DNA from: a virus
Length of the DNA: 64,000 nucleotides
Virus record (IMG/VR): IMGVR_UViG_3300047560_000921
Location: 1 to 64,000 of that record
Reading direction: 5' to 3' (one strand)
Every line of letters begins with the position of its first letter. Positions within the stretch are counted from its first letter, which is position 1. The position numbers and the translations under genes are program-made. Shown piece after piece: positions 53,864 through 63,515 of this stretch. The notes beneath the pieces are model-generated. The model had not been told where the DNA came from and searched no databases. It saw nothing but the letters and a program-made list of their open reading frames with translations.

Positions 53864-54292
53864 TTAGAGTTTGTTTATAATGTGGGAGCCATGGACGCGA
53901 ACTTGAATGTGCCCGTTGTAATAATCTGCTGATTCCAGTACTCTGTGAGTAAACTGTTCTCTAGCTTCTATGTACGAGCATTGAGCCTTAGATGTACAGT
54001 AAAATAAGATTTCTCTAGTAAAATTATCTTTACCTAGGGTCTCTACGTCCTTGTTGAGTTCAATGTTTGAGCCAAAATATTCGCGCCAATCAGAATCGAT
54101 TTTGCTACGAATTTTCTTTTTCTTTTTTGTGCCGTTTTTGAGTTTAACTGTTTTGTATGTGGTTTTAGAGAATTTTGCTAATTTCTTGCCGATGTATTTG
54201 CGGCCTGTTGCATTATTTGTGATAATGTAAACAAACCCAATACAATCTTCCGGAAGTGCTTCCACTTCAACTCCCTGATATAGCCAAGTCAT
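53864..54292 (-). CDS. GIY-YIG family endonuclease
   Basis: 142 aa. The N-terminal GFVYIITNNATGRKYIGKKLA is a GIY-YIG motif (GFVYI at 19-23, KYIGKK at 32-37). A Lys-rich loop (KNGTKKKKKIRSK), then DWREYFGSNIELNKDVETLG, FTREILFYC and YIEAREQFTHRVLESADYYN, which supplies the catalytic-type Glu (EAREQ). Small proteins of this form are common in T4-like phages and resemble free-standing homing endonucleases, though repair or host-DNA cutting are alternatives. Last gene of the operon, next to the RNA-like region. Confidence 0.82.
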   Translation of the reverse strand: MTWLYQGVEVEALPEDCIGFVYIITNNATGRKYIGKKLAKFSKTTYKTVKLKNGTKKKKKIRSKIDSDWREYFGSNIELNKDVETLGKDNFTREILFYCTSKAQCSYIEAREQFTHRVLESADYYNGHIQVRVHGSHIINKL

Positions 54293-54309
54293 AGCTTACT
54301 ATATAGTCG

Positions 54310-54948
54310 TCATGCTTGATTTGTATCACTTTCAGGCGAAAAACCTAGCACCATGGGAAGTTTAGATAGTTGTATTCTATTAGAGTTTATAAGTTGAGCC
54401 GTTGCGTCTTGATAATATTGTTCTACTAATTCTATGGTTTCTGCTGTTTGGATTTTGTTATTAAATGTGTATCTTAAGGATTCTAGTTGAAAAACAGATG
54501 TTTCGTATTCTTCTTGTTTAAATTTTAAAAGTTTTTGTGCGCTATCTGCAGAGCAGTTATGTACGTGCTGGAACACATCGACCCACTGATCTATAGATTT
54601 TAAATTATTGTAAAATTGATGATTGCTGTAATTGTATTTTTCAAATTGAAAGTCTACTGCACTGTTTACATAATTGATAGCCAGTGCTTTAGCCCGCATG
54701 AACTGCAACTGCTTGAATTCTGTGGGATTAGTAGTCTTTGCTTTTTTGTATAGTATACGTTTTCCGTTGTCGTAAAACAACTGGTATGTGCAGTAAAGAT
54801 GCCAAACAGACAACTTAGTTTCACCGTTAAACACATTGTAGCTAAGATTGCTTTCAAAGTTAGGAGGCTGATTATCGATGTAATAACTCAGCCAAACTAC
54901 TTGGTCAGTAATTTGATCGACTAACATTTTAAATCGATGAATAGCCAT
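54310..54948 (-). CDS. hypothetical protein, 212 aa, biosynthetic-like operon
   Basis: Overlaps the upstream PP-loop gene by 20 bases. Rich in Tyr, Asn, Gln and aromatic residues (VVWLSYYIDNQPPNFESNLS; YCTYQLFYDNGKRILYKKAK; LAINYVNSAVDFQFEKYNYS) with helices in the second half. No motif is recognised. Coupling to the PP-loop genes suggests the same pathway. Confidence 0.65.
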   Translation of the reverse strand: MAIHRFKMLVDQITDQVVWLSYYIDNQPPNFESNLSYNVFNGETKLSVWHLYCTYQLFYDNGKRILYKKAKTTNPTEFKQLQFMRAKALAINYVNSAVDFQFEKYNYSNHQFYNNLKSIDQWVDVFQHVHNCSADSAQKLLKFKQEEYETSVFQLESLRYTFNNKIQTAETIELVEQYYQDATAQLINSNRIQLSKLPMVLGFSPESDTNQA

Positions 54949-55999
54949 CTATACTCCTTACATTGGAAAACTTTATTACTCCATCTTCTTCGTAAATTTG
55001 TGTCTTGTATGTTTGTCGCAATGACATGCGTTGACTAAATGCCTTTTGTTTATTCATGTAACTAACATCATTAGTTGCATTAACAATATATCGTTTAGGC
55101 CATAGCTTGTTGTCTATGTAGTTGTGGTATTCTGGATTAGTGCTCATGTACTCAAAACTAAACGTCATTACGTCGTCATCGTAGAAGAAACGGAATATTT
55201 TGTTTTGTGTAGCAATGTCGCTAAGGTCACCGGTCGTACTCCAGTACCATGGACGTATTAAGTCGTCTTGGTGATCCAATGCATTTGCCCACCACCAACT
55301 TAGTTGGTTAATAGACTTAATTTCAAAAGGAGCTTGTCTTGCTAGTTTGATAATTATATCCTGATACAGTGTCGAGTTATCAATCCTAGTAATGTATGGC
55401 AGTAAGTTAATCCACGGATCCATTAAATCTAAGTCGCTGACATTGCCTTTAGAAAATTTTAAAATATCTGTAGACCCTATGACATGGTCGCCCATGTCTC
55501 CCGTTACTAATAATACATTAGGGTCACTCATTAGCTTGGGATAGTTTAATGGAACGATAGGAATGTTTGGTAGTATGTCTCTGTAAAATAGTTCAGGATA
55601 CTCGCCAATACTATATGATGTCATGGCAAGATTAAATTTGCCTGCTTCTAAAAATTCTTTAAATTTAGGATGCTTACGTAATGATACCAATGCACATACG
55701 CTATCGATACCACCACTGTACATTAATGTTATAGTTCTATTGCCCGCAGTGGTATAAATCTTATCAGCAACAGAATCTAGTATACTGTAGTATCTATCTT
55801 CCCAGTCATTGGTTAAGTTCTCTAATTTATACTTGGGGTCTTTAACTATACTGTAGCAAGGAAGTTCGATAGTATCTTTTAATAAGTTAAACCGATCCAC
55901 AGGGAATTCAAAGTTACCCACAACATTACGAAAGCTAGCCCGGTAAGGCAGCTTATCATATGGCATGCTACTCCAATTGACCCACAAGTATTGCTTCAT
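54929..55999 (-). CDS. PP-loop (N-type ATP pyrophosphatase) protein A
   Basis: 356 aa. PP-motif MYSGGIDS at residues 93-100 (consensus SGGxDS), preceded by the strand TITL and followed by VCALVSLRKHPKF, as in asparagine synthetase C-domains, QueC, TilS and sugar amidotransferases. Later LLVTGDMGDHVIGS matches the second conserved ATP-binding region (G-D-x-G-D) of asparagine synthetase-like enzymes. Such enzymes adenylate a carboxyl or carbonyl and let an amine or sulfur attack. There is no N-terminal glutaminase domain, so ammonia or another donor must come from elsewhere. Overlaps the next PP-loop gene by four bases. Confidence 0.75.
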   Translation of the reverse strand: MKQYLWVNWSSMPYDKLPYRASFRNVVGNFEFPVDRFNLLKDTIELPCYSIVKDPKYKLENLTNDWEDRYYSILDSVADKIYTTAGNRTITLMYSGGIDSVCALVSLRKHPKFKEFLEAGKFNLAMTSYSIGEYPELFYRDILPNIPIVPLNYPKLMSDPNVLLVTGDMGDHVIGSTDILKFSKGNVSDLDLMDPWINLLPYITRIDNSTLYQDIIIKLARQAPFEIKSINQLSWWWANALDHQDDLIRPWYWSTTGDLSDIATQNKIFRFFYDDDVMTFSFEYMSTNPEYHNYIDNKLWPKRYIVNATNDVSYMNKQKAFSQRMSLRQTYKTQIYEEDGVIKFSNVRSIDGYSSI

Positions 56000-57072
56000 G
56001 CATTTGGTCCGCTGAGTTTTCTAGTAGCCACTAAGTTGTGCGTATGCGGCGTAGTAAGGTATGTAATTAAGTCAGCAATAGGAGTTGCGATTACTTGCCC
56101 GCTACTAATACCACCGGCAGCTTCATCGACATACGCTTGATATAGCATTTCTTTGCCTGAGTTAAAGTTTTTTCCTTGTAGCTGTTCAAAGCCTGTGTAT
56201 TTTCTAGCAGGTAACATTTCTGGCCATTCACGCTGAGTCATCAACGGCTTGAACAACATATGGAAACAACGCCACCACATTCTGGGATGTGGTAACCAGC
56301 GTATAAACACTTCGTAGATAACATCTTGTGTGTTTAAAAAGTCTTTTACAGCAGGATCAGTTAAGTATGCAACAATTAGCTCAGGGGTGTAAAGATAAAA
56401 TTTACTAGTACCCTCGTAACCCATGGCCATCATGTGTTGCATAATTGGCAAAGGGGTTTGCCACCAAACTGGCTTTGCAACTCCGGGCACGTTATCTAGT
56501 TCGGGTAAATCTAAATCAGGAGTTAATGTTTTCTTATAAGGTGCAAATACAATGTCTCCGCCTGCCATAATATAACAGTAGTCGGGACAAATAAAATCCA
56601 TAGTAGCACATTGCAACAAAACGTGAACACCAGTGAATCCATACTTTGCCGCGTACTCTTTGCCCTTAGTTGCATAAAATTCATCAGGATTAATTTTAAA
56701 ATCGATGTATTCTATGTTGTACTTTTCGCAAAAAGCATAAGCATTTTTAATGTCATGGTCGTTGAGTATGCGCCCGTCGGCATCAACCATACTAACGATA
56801 ACAGTTTTAAAAGGAATGTCGGCTTGCATAAAACTCAAACATGCCATTTGACTATCACTGCCGCCACTGAGTCCTACACAAATAGGCTTAGTAGCTTTAC
56901 TGGCAATTAGTCTAGCAGTGTTAATACATTCCTGTCTGAATGATTGTATAGGCCTGGTTGTATGGCCTAACTGTATTTGATATTGTTTAGTGGGATCGGG
57001 CTTGTTGTACCACTCGCCGCCAAATCCCCATTTAAAATGGTTGTTTTCTGTGTATTCAAACTTTAAGTCCAT
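55996..57072 (-). CDS. PP-loop (N-type ATP pyrophosphatase) protein B
   Basis: I favour ATG 57072 (MDLKFEYTENNHFKWGFGGE), with GGTGGA about nine bases upstream, giving 358 aa; ATG 57081 is possible. The PP-motif SGGSDS is at 69-74 (PICVGLSGGSDSQMACLSFM), followed by FKTVIVSMVDADGRILNDHD and IEYIDFKINPDEF, the alpha-hydrolase fold. YCYIMAGGDIVFAPYKKTL fits the second ATP-site region. The C-terminal half is rich in Trp and His (IRWLPHPRMWWRCFHMLFKP). A second PP-loop enzyme, not a close copy of protein A, suggests two consecutive activation steps or a heteromer. Confidence 0.75.
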   Translation of the reverse strand: MDLKFEYTENNHFKWGFGGEWYNKPDPTKQYQIQLGHTTRPIQSFRQECINTARLIASKATKPICVGLSGGSDSQMACLSFMQADIPFKTVIVSMVDADGRILNDHDIKNAYAFCEKYNIEYIDFKINPDEFYATKGKEYAAKYGFTGVHVLLQCATMDFICPDYCYIMAGGDIVFAPYKKTLTPDLDLPELDNVPGVAKPVWWQTPLPIMQHMMAMGYEGTSKFYLYTPELIVAYLTDPAVKDFLNTQDVIYEVFIRWLPHPRMWWRCFHMLFKPLMTQREWPEMLPARKYTGFEQLQGKNFNSGKEMLYQAYVDEAAGGISSGQVIATPIADLITYLTTPHTHNLVATRKLSGPNA

Positions 57073-57583
57073 AATGTTCATTCCACCACTGTGTGTTTTT
57101 AAATCCAACGGATCTAATAGGTCTCTTAAACGGCAACTTTAGTTTCCAAATCAAGTAAGAACTAAATGTGTTGCAGTTTGCTTTTAATAAATTAAACTCT
57201 GTAATAGGATAGCTTTTTGTTGCATACAATATGTCACTAAAGTCTACAGCAGGACAGCTATCAATGATTTTTACTTTGTGGCCAAACCAACGAGCATTGT
57301 ATACTCTGTTAGTGATATAAGGAGCACGTTCATAATAGTCCATGGTACCTGCATAGATAGCATTGCATTTTTGCACATCTAGCGTTTCTCGGTCTGTAAC
57401 TTCCGCAACAAACCAAACCCCGCGAGATTTATCATAGCAGGCTATAAACGAATGGGTACCGCCCAGCAACCCTTTAAGGTGCCAGGCAGTAGCGTGTAGA
57501 TAATATGTTTTCTCTGTGTCTAATATTAAATCAAAGTCTTGACTAATATCGCACTGTTTCCAATCTTTAAACAGCATGATCAA
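57056..57583 (-). CDS. permuted papain-like-fold (PPPDE/DUF4105-type) protein
   Basis: 175 aa. The pattern resembles circularly permuted papain-like proteins: a His after a Gly-rich turn (LLGGTHSFIACYD, H44), then strands (GVWFVAEVTD), and an N-C-N-T-F motif with the candidate nucleophile (EFNLLKANCNTFSSYLIWKL, C137). NCNxF followed by a helix is the hallmark of PPPDE- and DUF4105-type families, thiol peptidases or amidases. It overlaps its neighbours on both sides. Activity could be cutting or forming an amide bond; this is a motif-based fold call. Confidence 0.5.
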   Translation of the reverse strand: MIMLFKDWKQCDISQDFDLILDTEKTYYLHATAWHLKGLLGGTHSFIACYDKSRGVWFVAEVTDRETLDVQKCNAIYAGTMDYYERAPYITNRVYNARWFGHKVKIIDSCPAVDFSDILYATKSYPITEFNLLKANCNTFSSYLIWKLKLPFKRPIRSVGFKNTQWWNEHYGLKV

Positions 57584-58403
57584 ATTTTGTATAAGGGCTT
57601 GCTGGACTTTGTTCCATTTTGTAGTAGTTATCGTGCTGTCTGTCGTAAGCGGCTTTCCAGTTAACTACGTCGGTGTCCCAATCACCTGTTGGTGCAGGAT
57701 CATGTTGCATATAGTTGTTCTTGTCTTCACCTGCAACCATTACAGTTGATTCTGGTGCAATGTTTAAGATAGGCTTACATTCGGTACTTGCAAGAATCAT
57801 GCCCATAGCAACACGAGGAGTGCTAGCCATATTAGGACCAGAACCGTGAATAATATAAGGGCTGTGTAACAATACACTTCCTGCAGGTACTACAGTTTTA
57901 ACACGCTCCTTAGGTAGATCTTCGTCTACAGTTTGGCCACGCATTAGTAAGTTAGTATCTGTTTTAACGTCTTTGTGCTTACGCTGGAATACGCGATGAC
58001 TACCTTGTACATATTCAATGCTACCGTGTTCTTCTGTAACATCGTCGAAAGCAAACCATGCGGTAACTGCTAGGTGTTTATTATCAAAGTTCCAGTAAGT
58101 AGCGTCTTGATGGAAGCTGACGTCTTTGCCGTCGCCAGGCTTCTTAACCCAAAACAATGTGTCCCAACAATGAATGTTAGGACCGATGAGTTGTGTTAAT
58201 GCTTCTATAAGTTTAGGACTGCGGCTAATTTTATCAACGAACGGAAATAGTACATTACTCTTACAACGATAATCGCTGTTCATAAGATGTAGTTGTTCTT
58301 CGGCTTCTAATACTAGCTTTTTAAGTTCCAGGGCTTCTTCCCTGGACATAATTTCGATGGGCCCAACCCAACCATTGTTTTCAAATTGTTCTTTTAATGT
58401 CAT
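57567..58403 (-). CDS. Fe(II)/2-oxoglutarate dioxygenase, PhyH family
   Basis: 278 aa. Phytanoyl-CoA dioxygenase-type enzyme. The iron triad is H98 and D100 (DVSFHQDATYWNF) with H186 (SPYIIHGSGPN), and R197 (STPRVAMG) is placed to bind 2-oxoglutarate. Typical surroundings: LAVTAWFAFDDVTEEHGSIE, then YVQGSHR. Family members hydroxylate or halogenate free small molecules, lipids, or carrier-bound intermediates. It overlaps the GNAT gene by four bases, so it is co-translated within the operon. Confidence 0.87.
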   Translation of the reverse strand: MTLKEQFENNGWVGPIEIMSREEALELKKLVLEAEEQLHLMNSDYRCKSNVLFPFVDKISRSPKLIEALTQLIGPNIHCWDTLFWVKKPGDGKDVSFHQDATYWNFDNKHLAVTAWFAFDDVTEEHGSIEYVQGSHRVFQRKHKDVKTDTNLLMRGQTVDEDLPKERVKTVVPAGSVLLHSPYIIHGSGPNMASTPRVAMGMILASTECKPILNIAPESTVMVAGEDKNNYMQHDPAPTGDWDTDVVNWKAAYDRQHDNYYKMEQSPASPYTKFDHAV

Positions 58404-58855
58404 AATGTTTTTTCCATCCTAATAAAATCGGGCTTCATACCAACCGATGCACAACTGGCTTGACGCACTTTGTTGTCTACATGTACATGACTGGCAATAC
58501 GTTTGCTGCCTGCATTGCGTACGATTTGCTCAAAGTGTCTATGCATGATGTTATATAGGCCGCGACGTCGGAACCCGTCTTCTACACAACTGAATACAAT
58601 CCATGCAGTTTTGTAATTGTCTTCTAAAATGTCGTATACAATGTGCCCTGCTACTTGGCCGTTGATTTCTATATAAACAGCTTTGCTTTTGTTAGTGCCA
58701 AACATAAACGGATTTGAATGGCCTGCATCAATTAGCCCGGCATAATTACGCAAGAAAAACGGCATTACTGGACTGCCGCCAATTTGTTGTGCCATTTTAA
58801 TAGTCACATCTTGTCCAGTTTTGTCTTTTTCCGTTGCAATAGTTATGTCTGCCAT
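58400..58855 (-). CDS. GNAT-family N-acetyltransferase
   Basis: I start it at ATG 58855 (MADITIATEKDKTGQDVTIK), one base after the gp46 stop, with GAGG upstream. 151 aa. The GNAT core is VYIEINGQVAGHIVYDILED, then WIVFSCVEDGFRRRGLYNIM with the acetyl-CoA loop R-R-R-G-L, and SKRIASHVHVDNKVRQASCA followed by SVGMKP, the usual N-x-x-x-x-x...GF/GM end. It acetylates an amine; substrate unknown. First gene of the unusual operon, transcribed from gp46. Confidence 0.8.
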   Translation of the reverse strand: MADITIATEKDKTGQDVTIKMAQQIGGSPVMPFFLRNYAGLIDAGHSNPFMFGTNKSKAVYIEINGQVAGHIVYDILEDNYKTAWIVFSCVEDGFRRRGLYNIMHRHFEQIVRNAGSKRIASHVHVDNKVRQASCASVGMKPDFIRMEKTL

Positions 58856-58856
58856 G

Positions 58857-60632
58857 TTATACCTCAATCATATCTACGTCCAGACCAAATGTAGTAAACC
58901 CATTCTCTTTGGTAACTTGTAGGATTGTATTTACACGACTGACCAGTTCGTCTCTGTGACTGATTAAGAATATGTTTTTGCTTTGTTCACGTGCCATTTT
59001 CTTAAGGATGCCTAACGCACTGTCCACGCCGTTTGGATCCATACCGCTGTCAATCATTTCGTCGATGAACAAAATGTTAATAGGTGTGTTTAGACTTTCA
59101 TAAACATCGCGGAAGCTCCAGCTTAGTCCCAAGATTAAACGATTACGCTCGCCACGTGACAAATTGTCAAAGTCGAACTCTTGGCCCAGCTGACTAATAG
59201 TAACCGACAAGTCACTTTGGAACTTAACTTCATGTGGCAGTGCTAGTTTTTCTAAATAGTATTCTAGCCTATGGTTCAAGTAGCTTAAATTCTGCTCGAT
59301 AATTTTACGGCGAATAAAGCTGTCTTTGTTTGTTAACAGTTTAAGCAAGAACTCTTGGTGTTCAATTAGTCTTGTCAGTTCGTTAACTCTAGTCCAGTCT
59401 AGTTCAGACAATGCTGTTGCCTTAAGGTGATTAATTTGTTCATCGTAAGGATCGGTTTCTAACAGTTTGTTTTCTAACTGATTGTATGTATTGTCTAATG
59501 TAGTTTTGTGATTAATTGCATCGTCCAAACTAGCATACTTTAGAACAGGACATGCACCTAAGTCGCCCAGTGCAAGAATTGCATCGCTGGCTTCTTTTTC
59601 TAATGCTTGCTCTTTAGTTAGGTCTGTTTGGATCAAACTAACTGCTTCTTTAATTTCGTTAAGCATCGACTCTTGCTTTGAATCGTGGATGTCTTGCCCG
59701 CAAGCATGGCACTTGTGATCCTCAGCTTTAACTAATGCGTTGGTCAATTCGGTTAGTTGAATGGTTAAACGTTTTACTGCACTTTGGTGTGTGCTTAGGT
59801 CTTTGTTAAATCGCTTTAATTTGTTTTCTTTTTCGCGCCATGCTGTTACTAATTGGTGATTAGCAAGTTCAGCGTTAATGTCAATGTTTTCTAACTCTTC
59901 GATTACACGTTGCAACATAACAATGTCGTCTTCGTGCTTCTTAAGCCATACGCCACTGCGACGCTCTAAGTCTTCGATTGAAGTCTTAATCTTGTTATTG
60001 CTTTCTTGTTGAGCTTTGATGCGGAACTCTTCTTCTTTCAAAGAATCTCTGCTACCTTTAGTAAGCTCTTTAAGTATGTCAGCCTTTTCACTTAACAGTG
60101 TAATGCCCAACAACTGCTCGATAATGGCACGTTGGTCGTTGCTCTTCATACTCAGGAACGGCTCAGTAAAAGTATTAAGAGCTAGAATATGCTTAAACAT
60201 ATCATAGCTCATACCTAATACTTGTTCGATATGTTCCTGAGTTAGTCTGTTCTCACCCTGTCCCTCGTCGCTAGCGTTACCAGCAATCTCGCTTTCGTTG
60301 ACAATGAATTTGAAAATGTTAGGCTTGCGACCTCTTTCGATTCTGTACGTTGATCCGTTCTTTTCGAAGTCGATAGTAACCAGCATATTTTTGGCATTGG
60401 TTTTGTTAACAAGATTGTCTTTCCTAATGTTAGTAATAGCTTGACCATACAAGCCATAGCACAGTGCATTAACTAAAGTAGTTTTTCCTGTTCCGTTACG
60501 ACTACCGTCGCCGCCAAGGTCCATGTTATTACCTAGCACCAACGTTAGTCCGTGTTGATCCAATTGAACAGCTTGGGTCACATTGCCCACGCTCATAAAG
60601 TTTTTGATTGTTAGATTTTTAACTGTAATCAT
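58857..60632 (-). CDS. 46: gp46 recombination nuclease subunit (Rad50/SbcC-like)
   Basis: 591 aa (T4 gp46, 560 aa). ATPase subunit of the gp46/gp47 complex that resects DNA ends for recombination-dependent replication. Walker A GSRNGTGKTT, ABC signature LSRGERNRL, Walker B INILFIDEMID, and a D-loop SGMDPNG. Two long coiled coils flank a zinc-hook CHAC (HKCHACGQDIHDSK) near the middle. It follows gp47 by ten bases and has a candidate promoter of its own. Confidence 0.95.
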   Translation of the reverse strand: MITVKNLTIKNFMSVGNVTQAVQLDQHGLTLVLGNNMDLGGDGSRNGTGKTTLVNALCYGLYGQAITNIRKDNLVNKTNAKNMLVTIDFEKNGSTYRIERGRKPNIFKFIVNESEIAGNASDEGQGENRLTQEHIEQVLGMSYDMFKHILALNTFTEPFLSMKSNDQRAIIEQLLGITLLSEKADILKELTKGSRDSLKEEEFRIKAQQESNNKIKTSIEDLERRSGVWLKKHEDDIVMLQRVIEELENIDINAELANHQLVTAWREKENKLKRFNKDLSTHQSAVKRLTIQLTELTNALVKAEDHKCHACGQDIHDSKQESMLNEIKEAVSLIQTDLTKEQALEKEASDAILALGDLGACPVLKYASLDDAINHKTTLDNTYNQLENKLLETDPYDEQINHLKATALSELDWTRVNELTRLIEHQEFLLKLLTNKDSFIRRKIIEQNLSYLNHRLEYYLEKLALPHEVKFQSDLSVTISQLGQEFDFDNLSRGERNRLILGLSWSFRDVYESLNTPINILFIDEMIDSGMDPNGVDSALGILKKMAREQSKNIFLISHRDELVSRVNTILQVTKENGFTTFGLDVDMIEV

Positions 60633-62894: not shown

Positions 62895-63515
62895 ATGAGA
62901 TTTAGTCAAATTAGCAAAAACTTTGTAGTAGTATATCCAGGCCGTTTTCAGCCTTTCCACTTAGGGCACAGGGGTGTTTACGACCATTTAGTGCATCAGT
63001 TTGGTGCAAGTGCTGTGAGTATTGCTACCAGCGATAAAGTTGAATTGCCTAAAAGTCCGTTTAGTTTTGCGGAAAAGAAAGCATTAATGATGCTTACTGG
63101 TGTACCGGGCAATGCAATCGTACAGACTAAAAACCCATATCAAGCTCAAGAAATTACAGCACAGCACAATCCTGCAAAAGACGTTCTAGTATTTGCAGTG
63201 AGCCAAAAAGATATGGACGAAGATCCTAGGTTTAAGTTTGGCACTAAAAAGGACGGAAGTCCAAGCTATTTACAGCCTTTTAAGAAAGATTTCGATTTCG
63301 CAACGTTTGACAAGCATGGCTACGTTTATGTTGCGCCTACGGTACAATTTAAGATTCTGGGACAGGAAATTCAAAGCGCCAGTGAGATTAGACGCATGTT
63401 TGCAGAATCAGATACAGAAACAAAAATGAAGTTGTTTACTGAGTTGTTTGGGAAGTTTGACCAGCAGTTGTTTAATATGGTTGATGCTAAACTAGGAGCA
63501 ATCCAGCATGATTGA
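62895..63515 (+). CDS. cytidylyltransferase-fold nucleotidyltransferase (NadM-like)
   Basis: 206 aa. Contains both signatures of the HIGH-type adenylyl/cytidylyltransferase fold: GRFQPFHLGH (17-26) and, near residue 160, EIQSASEIRRMF in the place of ISSTxIR. FVVVYPGRFQPFHLGH is closest in style to NMN adenylyltransferases (NadM/NadR) that make NAD. Other members (CoaD, FAD synthase, CTP-using enzymes) cannot be excluded. It overlaps the gp48-like gene by eight bases and is late-transcribed, odd for a metabolic enzyme. Confidence 0.75.
   Translation: MRFSQISKNFVVVYPGRFQPFHLGHRGVYDHLVHQFGASAVSIATSDKVELPKSPFSFAEKKALMMLTGVPGNAIVQTKNPYQAQEITAQHNPAKDVLVFAVSQKDMDEDPRFKFGTKKDGSPSYLQPFKKDFDFATFDKHGYVYVAPTVQFKILGQEIQSASEIRRMFAESDTETKMKLFTELFGKFDQQLFNMVDAKLGAIQHD

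Follow-up and report, generated by a model that had tools for sequence, protein, structure and literature searches.

A modular operon with two asparagine-synthetase-like ligases in a large T4-like phage: a possible amide-forming pathway

Introduction

It is seldom that phages are recognised to carry genes for the construction of complex organic molecules, and the question raised by the locus described here is whether seven tightly packed genes of a large uncultivated T4-like phage (G000) are of that kind. The genes lie in the first 64,000 positions of the 231,384-bp virus record IMGVR_UViG_3300047560_000921, a stretch hereafter called the window. All seven open reading frames (ORFs) are on the minus strand (53864-58855), directly behind gp46, gp47 and the sigma factor gene gp55, in the order GNAT-PhyH-C97-PP370-PP356-U212-segE, where PP370 and PP356 stand for the first and second PP-loop proteins, C97 for the papain-like protein and U212 for the protein of 212 residues. 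A preliminary description made from the sequence had suggested that they form a so far unrecognised route of modification or biosynthesis, with two carbonyl-activating ATPases. Co-conservation of the genes, intact motifs and the amide-forming class of the two ATPases agree with the core of this reading. Our preferred answer, given tentatively, is a pathway of biosynthesis or tailoring in which amides are formed, and from which a small molecule of amide or peptide character would most likely result in the course of infection.

Results

The two PP-loop ligases

PP370 (55996..57072; 358 residues from the likely ATG at 57072) and PP356 (54929..55999; 356 residues) both carry an ATP-binding SGGxDS motif, which reads SGGSDS at residues 69-74 of the former (56851..56868) and SGGIDS at residues 95-100 of the latter (55700..55717). 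In the alignments, the PP370 homologues retain SGGxDS with few exceptions, namely rare D-to-E or S-to-T exchanges in two distant members, and SGG(I/V)DS is present in 9/9 PP356 homologues. Almost every homologue thus has an intact PP-loop active site.

As for family assignment, no PF00733 match was found for the window proteins or in the phage genome: PP370 and PP356 stay below the curated cut-off, and a distant PP370 (locus L023) scores 19.7 bits for a cut-off of 21. PP370 gives a weak NAD_synthase/ATP_bind_3 match in Pfam, and PP356 no real one. A comparison with 50,697 named phage records gave no match for these proteins or for their paralogues in a second cluster (see below), and no convincing PHROG was obtained. 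The first hidden Markov model (HMM) matches of PP370 were to NcsA/TtuI-like proteins (3.4e-8), NadE and MnmA, all confined to the PP-loop region (~80 residues). Its AlphaFold model (predicted local distance difference test, pLDDT, 91.1; predicted template modelling score, pTM, 0.91) was compared by Foldseek, which placed beta-lactam synthetase 1m1z first (E 3.2e-7) together with human ASNS, and NadE and carbapenam synthetase lower. PP356 aligns with the C-domain of AsnB (hhalign, 95.8%), with SGGIDS aligned and GDMGDHVIG lying on GDGGDELFG. With a relaxed hhalign alignment threshold, RKYTGFE of PP370 and NKQKAFS of PP356 fall on the AsnB lysine motif RPKMGF, and the full-length alignment puts the invariant Lys291 of PP370 (56200..56202) on the (R/K)xKxGF motif of AsnB.

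No glutaminase domain was matched in either protein, just 60-95 residues being found N-terminal of the PP-loop, and PP370 has no conserved CxxC or Fe-S cysteines, its Cys115 being invariant and Cys49 nearly so. Since hhalign aligns the PP-loop alone between PP370 and PP356, the two are not close paralogues. The N-terminal 85 residues of PP356, outside the PP-loop, resemble botulinum light chain (E 0.008-0.03), which was judged to be due to chance. Judging from its predicted structure, PP370 reads best as a stand-alone C-domain of the asparagine-synthetase/beta-lactam-synthetase class, and PP356, by sequence comparison, as a stand-alone C-domain of the asparagine-synthetase class. As a whole, the phage possesses seven SGGxDS genes, among them four PP356-family copies.

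Conservation and module structure

The complete seven-gene order behind gp46 recurs in L001, L002, L003 and L005 (38-96% protein identity), i.e. in five viruses in all, and the arrangement is therefore not a matter of chance. The gp46 flank is found in the same four loci and in L017, and GNAT lies beside the cassette in many relatives. L004 holds GNAT-PP370-PP356-U212-segE without adjacent PhyH and C97, which form a pair ~35 kb off in the same genome; the genome of the relative G003 contains both the PhyH-C97 pair and the PP370-PP356-U212 set, without linkage between them. PhyH-C97-PP370 is kept in L006, L016, L017, L018, L020 and L021, and PP356-U212 occurs alone in L027 and L029. This separate occurrence across loci defines two modules, PhyH-C97-PP370 and PP356-U212. 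The gene set is thus co-conserved among relatives, as opposed to an independent occurrence of its members.

The linkage was counted over 23 loci with the same PhyH, some of them nearly identical. C97 is at most two genes away from PhyH in 21 of them and five genes off in one, the contig ending in the other, and PP370 is near PhyH in 20/23. The pairwise distances of PhyH, C97 and PP370 correlate with r values of 0.68-0.85, not corrected for shared phylogeny. A literature search, limited mainly to freely accessible papers, yielded no description of the cassette.

Second cluster, tailoring variants and a bacterial operon

A second, larger and biosynthetic-looking cluster lies outside the window, at ~100.5-110.3 kb of G000:C1 (L035:2581-12314), where it adjoins ThyX. 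It comprises PP370b, PP356b and U212-like genes, TauD (6e-24), two Asp/Asn hydroxylases, a fatty-acid desaturase and a B12-type radical SAM protein, as well as SDR and GNAT-like proteins, the last two partly recognised by eye, and it recurs in G002 and G005. Further PP356 copies of G000 are found at 173-174 kb, with a methyltransferase, a hydrolase and a U212 relative, and at 186-187 kb; one copy, PP356d, is beside tail-like genes.

The enzymes that accompany the cassette vary between phages. In L017, a tryptophan halogenase gene (PF04820, 1.8e-102; WVWNIP and GGGSAG motifs) is inserted between PP370 and PP356, and in L025, L080 and L088 a class-III aminotransferase gene is present between PhyH and PP370 (in L080 and L088 by resemblance to L025). 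L076, L077 and L078 combine PhyH-C97, genes of the second-cluster type and a third PP-loop family at one locus, with GARS-type ATP-grasp proteins in L076 and L077. Neither the GARS-type ATP-grasp nor the third PP-loop family was found in G000.

A bacterial counterpart was detected in a Herminiimonas metagenome-assembled genome (L031), with genes for a cupin, an AsnB-like protein (531 residues), a protein of 115 residues, an ATP-grasp-like protein, PP370 (32%), PhyH (50%) and C97 (25%). Its cupin shares 43% identity with one from a phage, G007, where the cupin gene adjoins a PP356 gene.

Three other loci were noted. The seventh SGGxDS ORF of G000 (~73.3-74.0 kb; 211 residues; PF06508, 1.3e-8) is QueC-like and is flanked by two 2-oxoglutarate-oxygenase-like proteins, recognised by eye and without Pfam match (L112:8631-10653; G000:C1 ~72.6-74.7 kb). 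On a viral contig, IscU/NifU-like and IscA-like ORFs (by eye; L016:5603-6305) adjoin PhyH-C97-PP370 and radical SAM genes. A T4-like contig (L007:3864-15434) has a dense accessory cluster by the terminase gene, with a distant PP370 and a desaturase and an Asp/Asn hydroxylase that are both Pfam-supported; its GNAT, SDR, sulfotransferase-like and glycosyltransferase-like proteins were recognised by eye.

Partner proteins of the ligases

The first gene (58400..58855) encodes a GNAT-family N-acyltransferase of 151 residues (PF00583, 2.4e-8). It is followed by a PhyH-type Fe(II)/2-oxoglutarate oxygenase of 278 residues (57567..58403; PF05721, 3.7e-24, 86.6 vs a cut-off of 22 bits), the iron-binding HxD motif of which, H98-Q-D100, was located by homologue alignment (58104..58112). 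H98, D100, H186 and R197, i.e. the iron triad and the 2-oxoglutarate-binding arginine, are invariant in nine homologues. Fe-dependent halogenases carry HxG/A in place of the hydroxylase HxD, and the HxD of PhyH fits a hydroxylase rather than such a halogenase. The nearest solved relatives are 6zyk, human PHYH, SnoK, EvdO2, SyrB2, MysH and EctD.

C97 (57056..57577; 173 residues from the likely ATG at 57577) had been described as a permuted papain-like protein. Its match to PF05903 (E 0.0021; 18.3 vs 29.2 bits) is below the curated cut-off, and the assignment as PPPDE/C97-like is supported by the invariant candidate catalytic residues His42 (57452..57454) and Cys135 (57173..57175, in NCNTF), which stand in the His-before-Cys order of the PPPDE/C97 permuted papain-like peptidases. 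The PDB matches to the papain-like sequence profile were GTPases only and were judged to be chance ones.

U212 (54310..54948) has no real Pfam match. Its model (pLDDT 78.5) consists of an N-terminal beta part and four helices; a PDB fold search with it gave nothing below E 0.001, and weak fold matches were obtained with tail-fibre-assembly and DUF4376 proteins (E 6.5e-3 to 0.05). U212 homologues adjoin PP356 in L004, L006, L017, L027 and L029.

The last gene (53864..54292; 142 residues) encodes a GIY-YIG nuclease, as first described, matching PF19835 (6.5e-33; 114 vs 25 bits; 1-123 of 123). This family places it with T4 SegE and the freestanding homing endonucleases, and not among pathway enzymes. 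Unlike T4 SegE, it has metabolic genes as its neighbours, and in relatives this combination is found at differing places in the genome. Given that a similar SegE-type gene adjoins PP356-family genes near nrdB, i.e. at another genome site, in L004 and L106, SegE appears to travel with the cassette, and it is probably a mobility gene, hitch-hiker or neighbour, outside the pathway chemistry. The protein also matches PHROG 447 (1.2e-37), whose annotation as NAD synthetase is probably a mislabel.

Discussion

A putative amide-forming pathway

In the pathway that we propose, PP370 and PP356 would each adenylate a carboxylate with ATP and then transfer it to an amine. Because neither has a glutaminase domain, the amine donor would be free ammonia or an amino compound. 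PhyH would hydroxylate the substrate, C97, with its His-Cys pair, may be an acyl-transferase or amidase that works together with PhyH, and GNAT would acylate an amine. U212, a putative constant partner of PP356, may bind or present the substrate of the latter. The product would be diversified among phages by the exchange of tailoring enzymes, and SegE, without a part in the chemistry, would probably help the cassette to move. The halogenase, aminotransferase, ATP-grasp and radical SAM genes and the bacterial operon make a metabolite a better fit than a DNA base.

Even more tentatively, it can be proposed that large, apparently lytic T4-like phages possess a modular amide-forming system, neither ribosomal nor of the non-ribosomal peptide synthetase type. 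It would be built on expanded families of stand-alone asparagine-synthetase-like ligases, to which oxygenases, a halogenase, an aminotransferase and radical-SAM and ATP-grasp enzymes are added interchangeably, would be exchanged with bacteria and would make a peptide-like small molecule during infection. Stand-alone asparagine-synthetase-like ligases are already known in phages; what is unusual here is their expansion, their tailoring partners and the bacterial counterpart. If the operon makes a metabolite, phage biology would extend to small-molecule biosynthesis, with several unexplored amide-ligase families.

Several observations weigh against this proposal. Among the genes of the operon, none was recognised as encoding a transporter or a resistance function. 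The template modelling (TM) scores of PP370 to its top PDB matches are low (0.30-0.43), which makes the match one to a class and not to one enzyme. The bacterial operon was found in one genome only, a metagenome-assembled one, with no other among the 399 Burkholderiales genomes searched, and its C97 is just 25% identical. Finally, enzymes of these kinds could have DNA or protein as their substrate in place of free molecules.

Comparison with known biosynthetic systems

PP370 shares its predicted fold class, SGGxDS and the C-terminal lysine motif with beta-lactam, carbapenam and asparagine synthetases, and beta-lactam pathways likewise pair such a ligase with a 2-oxoglutarate oxygenase. It differs from these synthetases by lacking an N-terminal glutaminase-type domain, by ~14% identity and by the low TM-scores given above. 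The L017 halogenase is up to 48% identical to the flavin-dependent halogenases (PrnA/VirX1-type) of cyanophages, where tryptophan halogenases are sporadic (PMC3037559). The window operon has no halogenase, in contrast to the cyanophage halogenase loci, and around the two cyanophage halogenase genes inspected no PP-loop ligase is annotated.

At a broader level, antiSMASH revealed no biosynthetic gene cluster in 153 cyanophages (PMC10452541). According to the summary given there of Dragos et al. 2021, most of the known phage biosynthetic clusters are for bacteriocins and belong to temperate phages. The operon resembles the clusters so summarised in providing a phage with multi-enzyme biosynthetic genes, and differs from them by its presence in large T4-like phages and by the absence of a precursor-peptide gene from the operon. 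A ribosomally synthesised and post-translationally modified peptide (RiPP) or lasso cluster was also considered and dropped: the genes overlap, the largest gap is 17 bp, and there is no room for a precursor-peptide gene in the operon.

Alternative explanations

DNA hypermodification, one of the outcomes named in the preliminary description, is the strongest rival to the small-molecule reading, a serious one, given the activity of the phage ligase CmoY, that we nevertheless hold to be rather unlikely. The PP-loop enzymes would couple amino compounds with a carboxylate group carried by a base of the phage DNA or by a modified deoxynucleoside triphosphate, PhyH, GNAT and C97 would trim the adduct, and the phage would escape host nucleases by means of a relative of the CmoA-CmoX-CmoY (5-glycylcarboxymethylcytosine) system. 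CmoY of Synechococcus phage S-B43, a stand-alone asparagine-synthetase C-domain of 271 residues, attaches glycine to the 5-carboxymethylcytosine of DNA (PMC12783734). As in the present case, the ligase belongs to a marine T4-like phage and has no glutaminase domain. With hhalign, its PP-loop region, and this region only, aligns with PP370 (69.1% probability) and PP356 (36.4%). CmoY is well within PF00733 (1.7e-14), whereas PP370 and PP356, of 356-358 residues, are outside the cut-off, and the neighbours here are PhyH, C97, GNAT and U212. In the examined pieces of G000, tblastn and a motif scan found no CmoA or CmoX orthologue and no clear one of CmoY, with one generic methyltransferase match (E 5e-6) and no C5-methyltransferase motifs; membership of the CmoAXY system was dropped on the absence of the C5-carboxymethyltransferase CmoX from these pieces. 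TET/JBP oxygenases are encoded by the relatives G003 (G003:C1:82701-83132) and G007 (G007:C1:117772-118206) and suggest cytosine hypermodification there, but none was found in G000 and G002, both operon carriers. Thymidine hypermodification recruits pyridoxal-phosphate, radical-SAM and GNAT enzymes, and the ThyX gene next to the second cluster points the same way. A chromosomal-looking bacterial operon with the same genes, on the other hand, has no obvious need of DNA camouflage. Should the operon modify DNA, amide-based hypermodification would have a second route besides that of CmoY, independent of the first.

Less probable still is a post-translational or surface modification, acting on virion (tail or fibre) proteins or on host surface lipids or glycans, with U212 as an adaptor related to tail-fibre-assembly proteins. 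The weak fold matches of U212, the position of PP356d and the Asp/Asn hydroxylases, desaturase and GNATs of the second cluster, which could act on proteins or aminolipids, are in line with it. Yet the best BFVD matches of U212 are uncharacterised and the pLDDT of its model is modest, the bacterial operon has neither U212 nor phage structural genes, and the operon lies among replication genes, not tail genes. Sugar amidation, also proposed at first, found no support.

That the genes are functionally unrelated passengers of an accessory hot spot behind gp46 seems distinctly improbable. Cyanophages do have a variable accessory region between gp46 and gp25 (PMC3037559), and S-B64 carries a lone Trp halogenase directly behind gp46; co-conservation disfavours this explanation, for the PhyH-C97-PP370 set remains intact elsewhere in phage genomes as well as in a bacterium, and PP356 and its partner U212 are likewise kept together at other sites.

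Modification of tRNA or nucleotides by thiolation or queuosine-type chemistry, suggested by the first HMM matches of PP370 and by the separate QueC-like gene, is the least credible explanation and was rejected as the leading idea, since those matches span the PP-loop only, the fold ranks beta-lactam and asparagine synthetases first and not MnmA or TtuA, PP370 has no conserved CxxC, and no tRNA genes are present in the window.

Operon boundaries and neighbouring genes

The seven ORFs occur in the order first reported, GNAT, PhyH and GIY-YIG being confirmed by Pfam. Consecutive genes overlap by 4-20 bp (20 bp between the U212 and PP356 genes), except for the 1-bp gap between gp46 and GNAT and the largest gap, of 17 bp, between U212 and segE. 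The upstream anchor, gp46 (58857..60632, minus strand), encodes a recombination endonuclease subunit with ~50% identity (tblastn) to gp46 of named phages. The position behind gp46 is what speaks for the early expression initially supposed; the T4-like late promoter TATAAATA is not enriched, and sigma-70-like promoter sites are at chance level, no commoner than in shuffled sequence. The only PADLOC match of the operon is a homing endonuclease model (HEase, 2e-6), and in view of the lack of any defence-system match this reading was dropped.

Two further loci deserve mention. On the plus strand of the window (62895-63515), a nucleotidyltransferase-like ORF, NMN adenylyltransferase-like by eye, diverges from the sigma gp55 gene and is conserved at this site in L002, L005 and L017. 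Elsewhere in the phage, a UvdE-type UV endonuclease (PF03851, 3.3e-35) is found beside a hotdog-like protein of 125 residues (L104:391-1479; G000:C1 ~164.4-165.5 kb).

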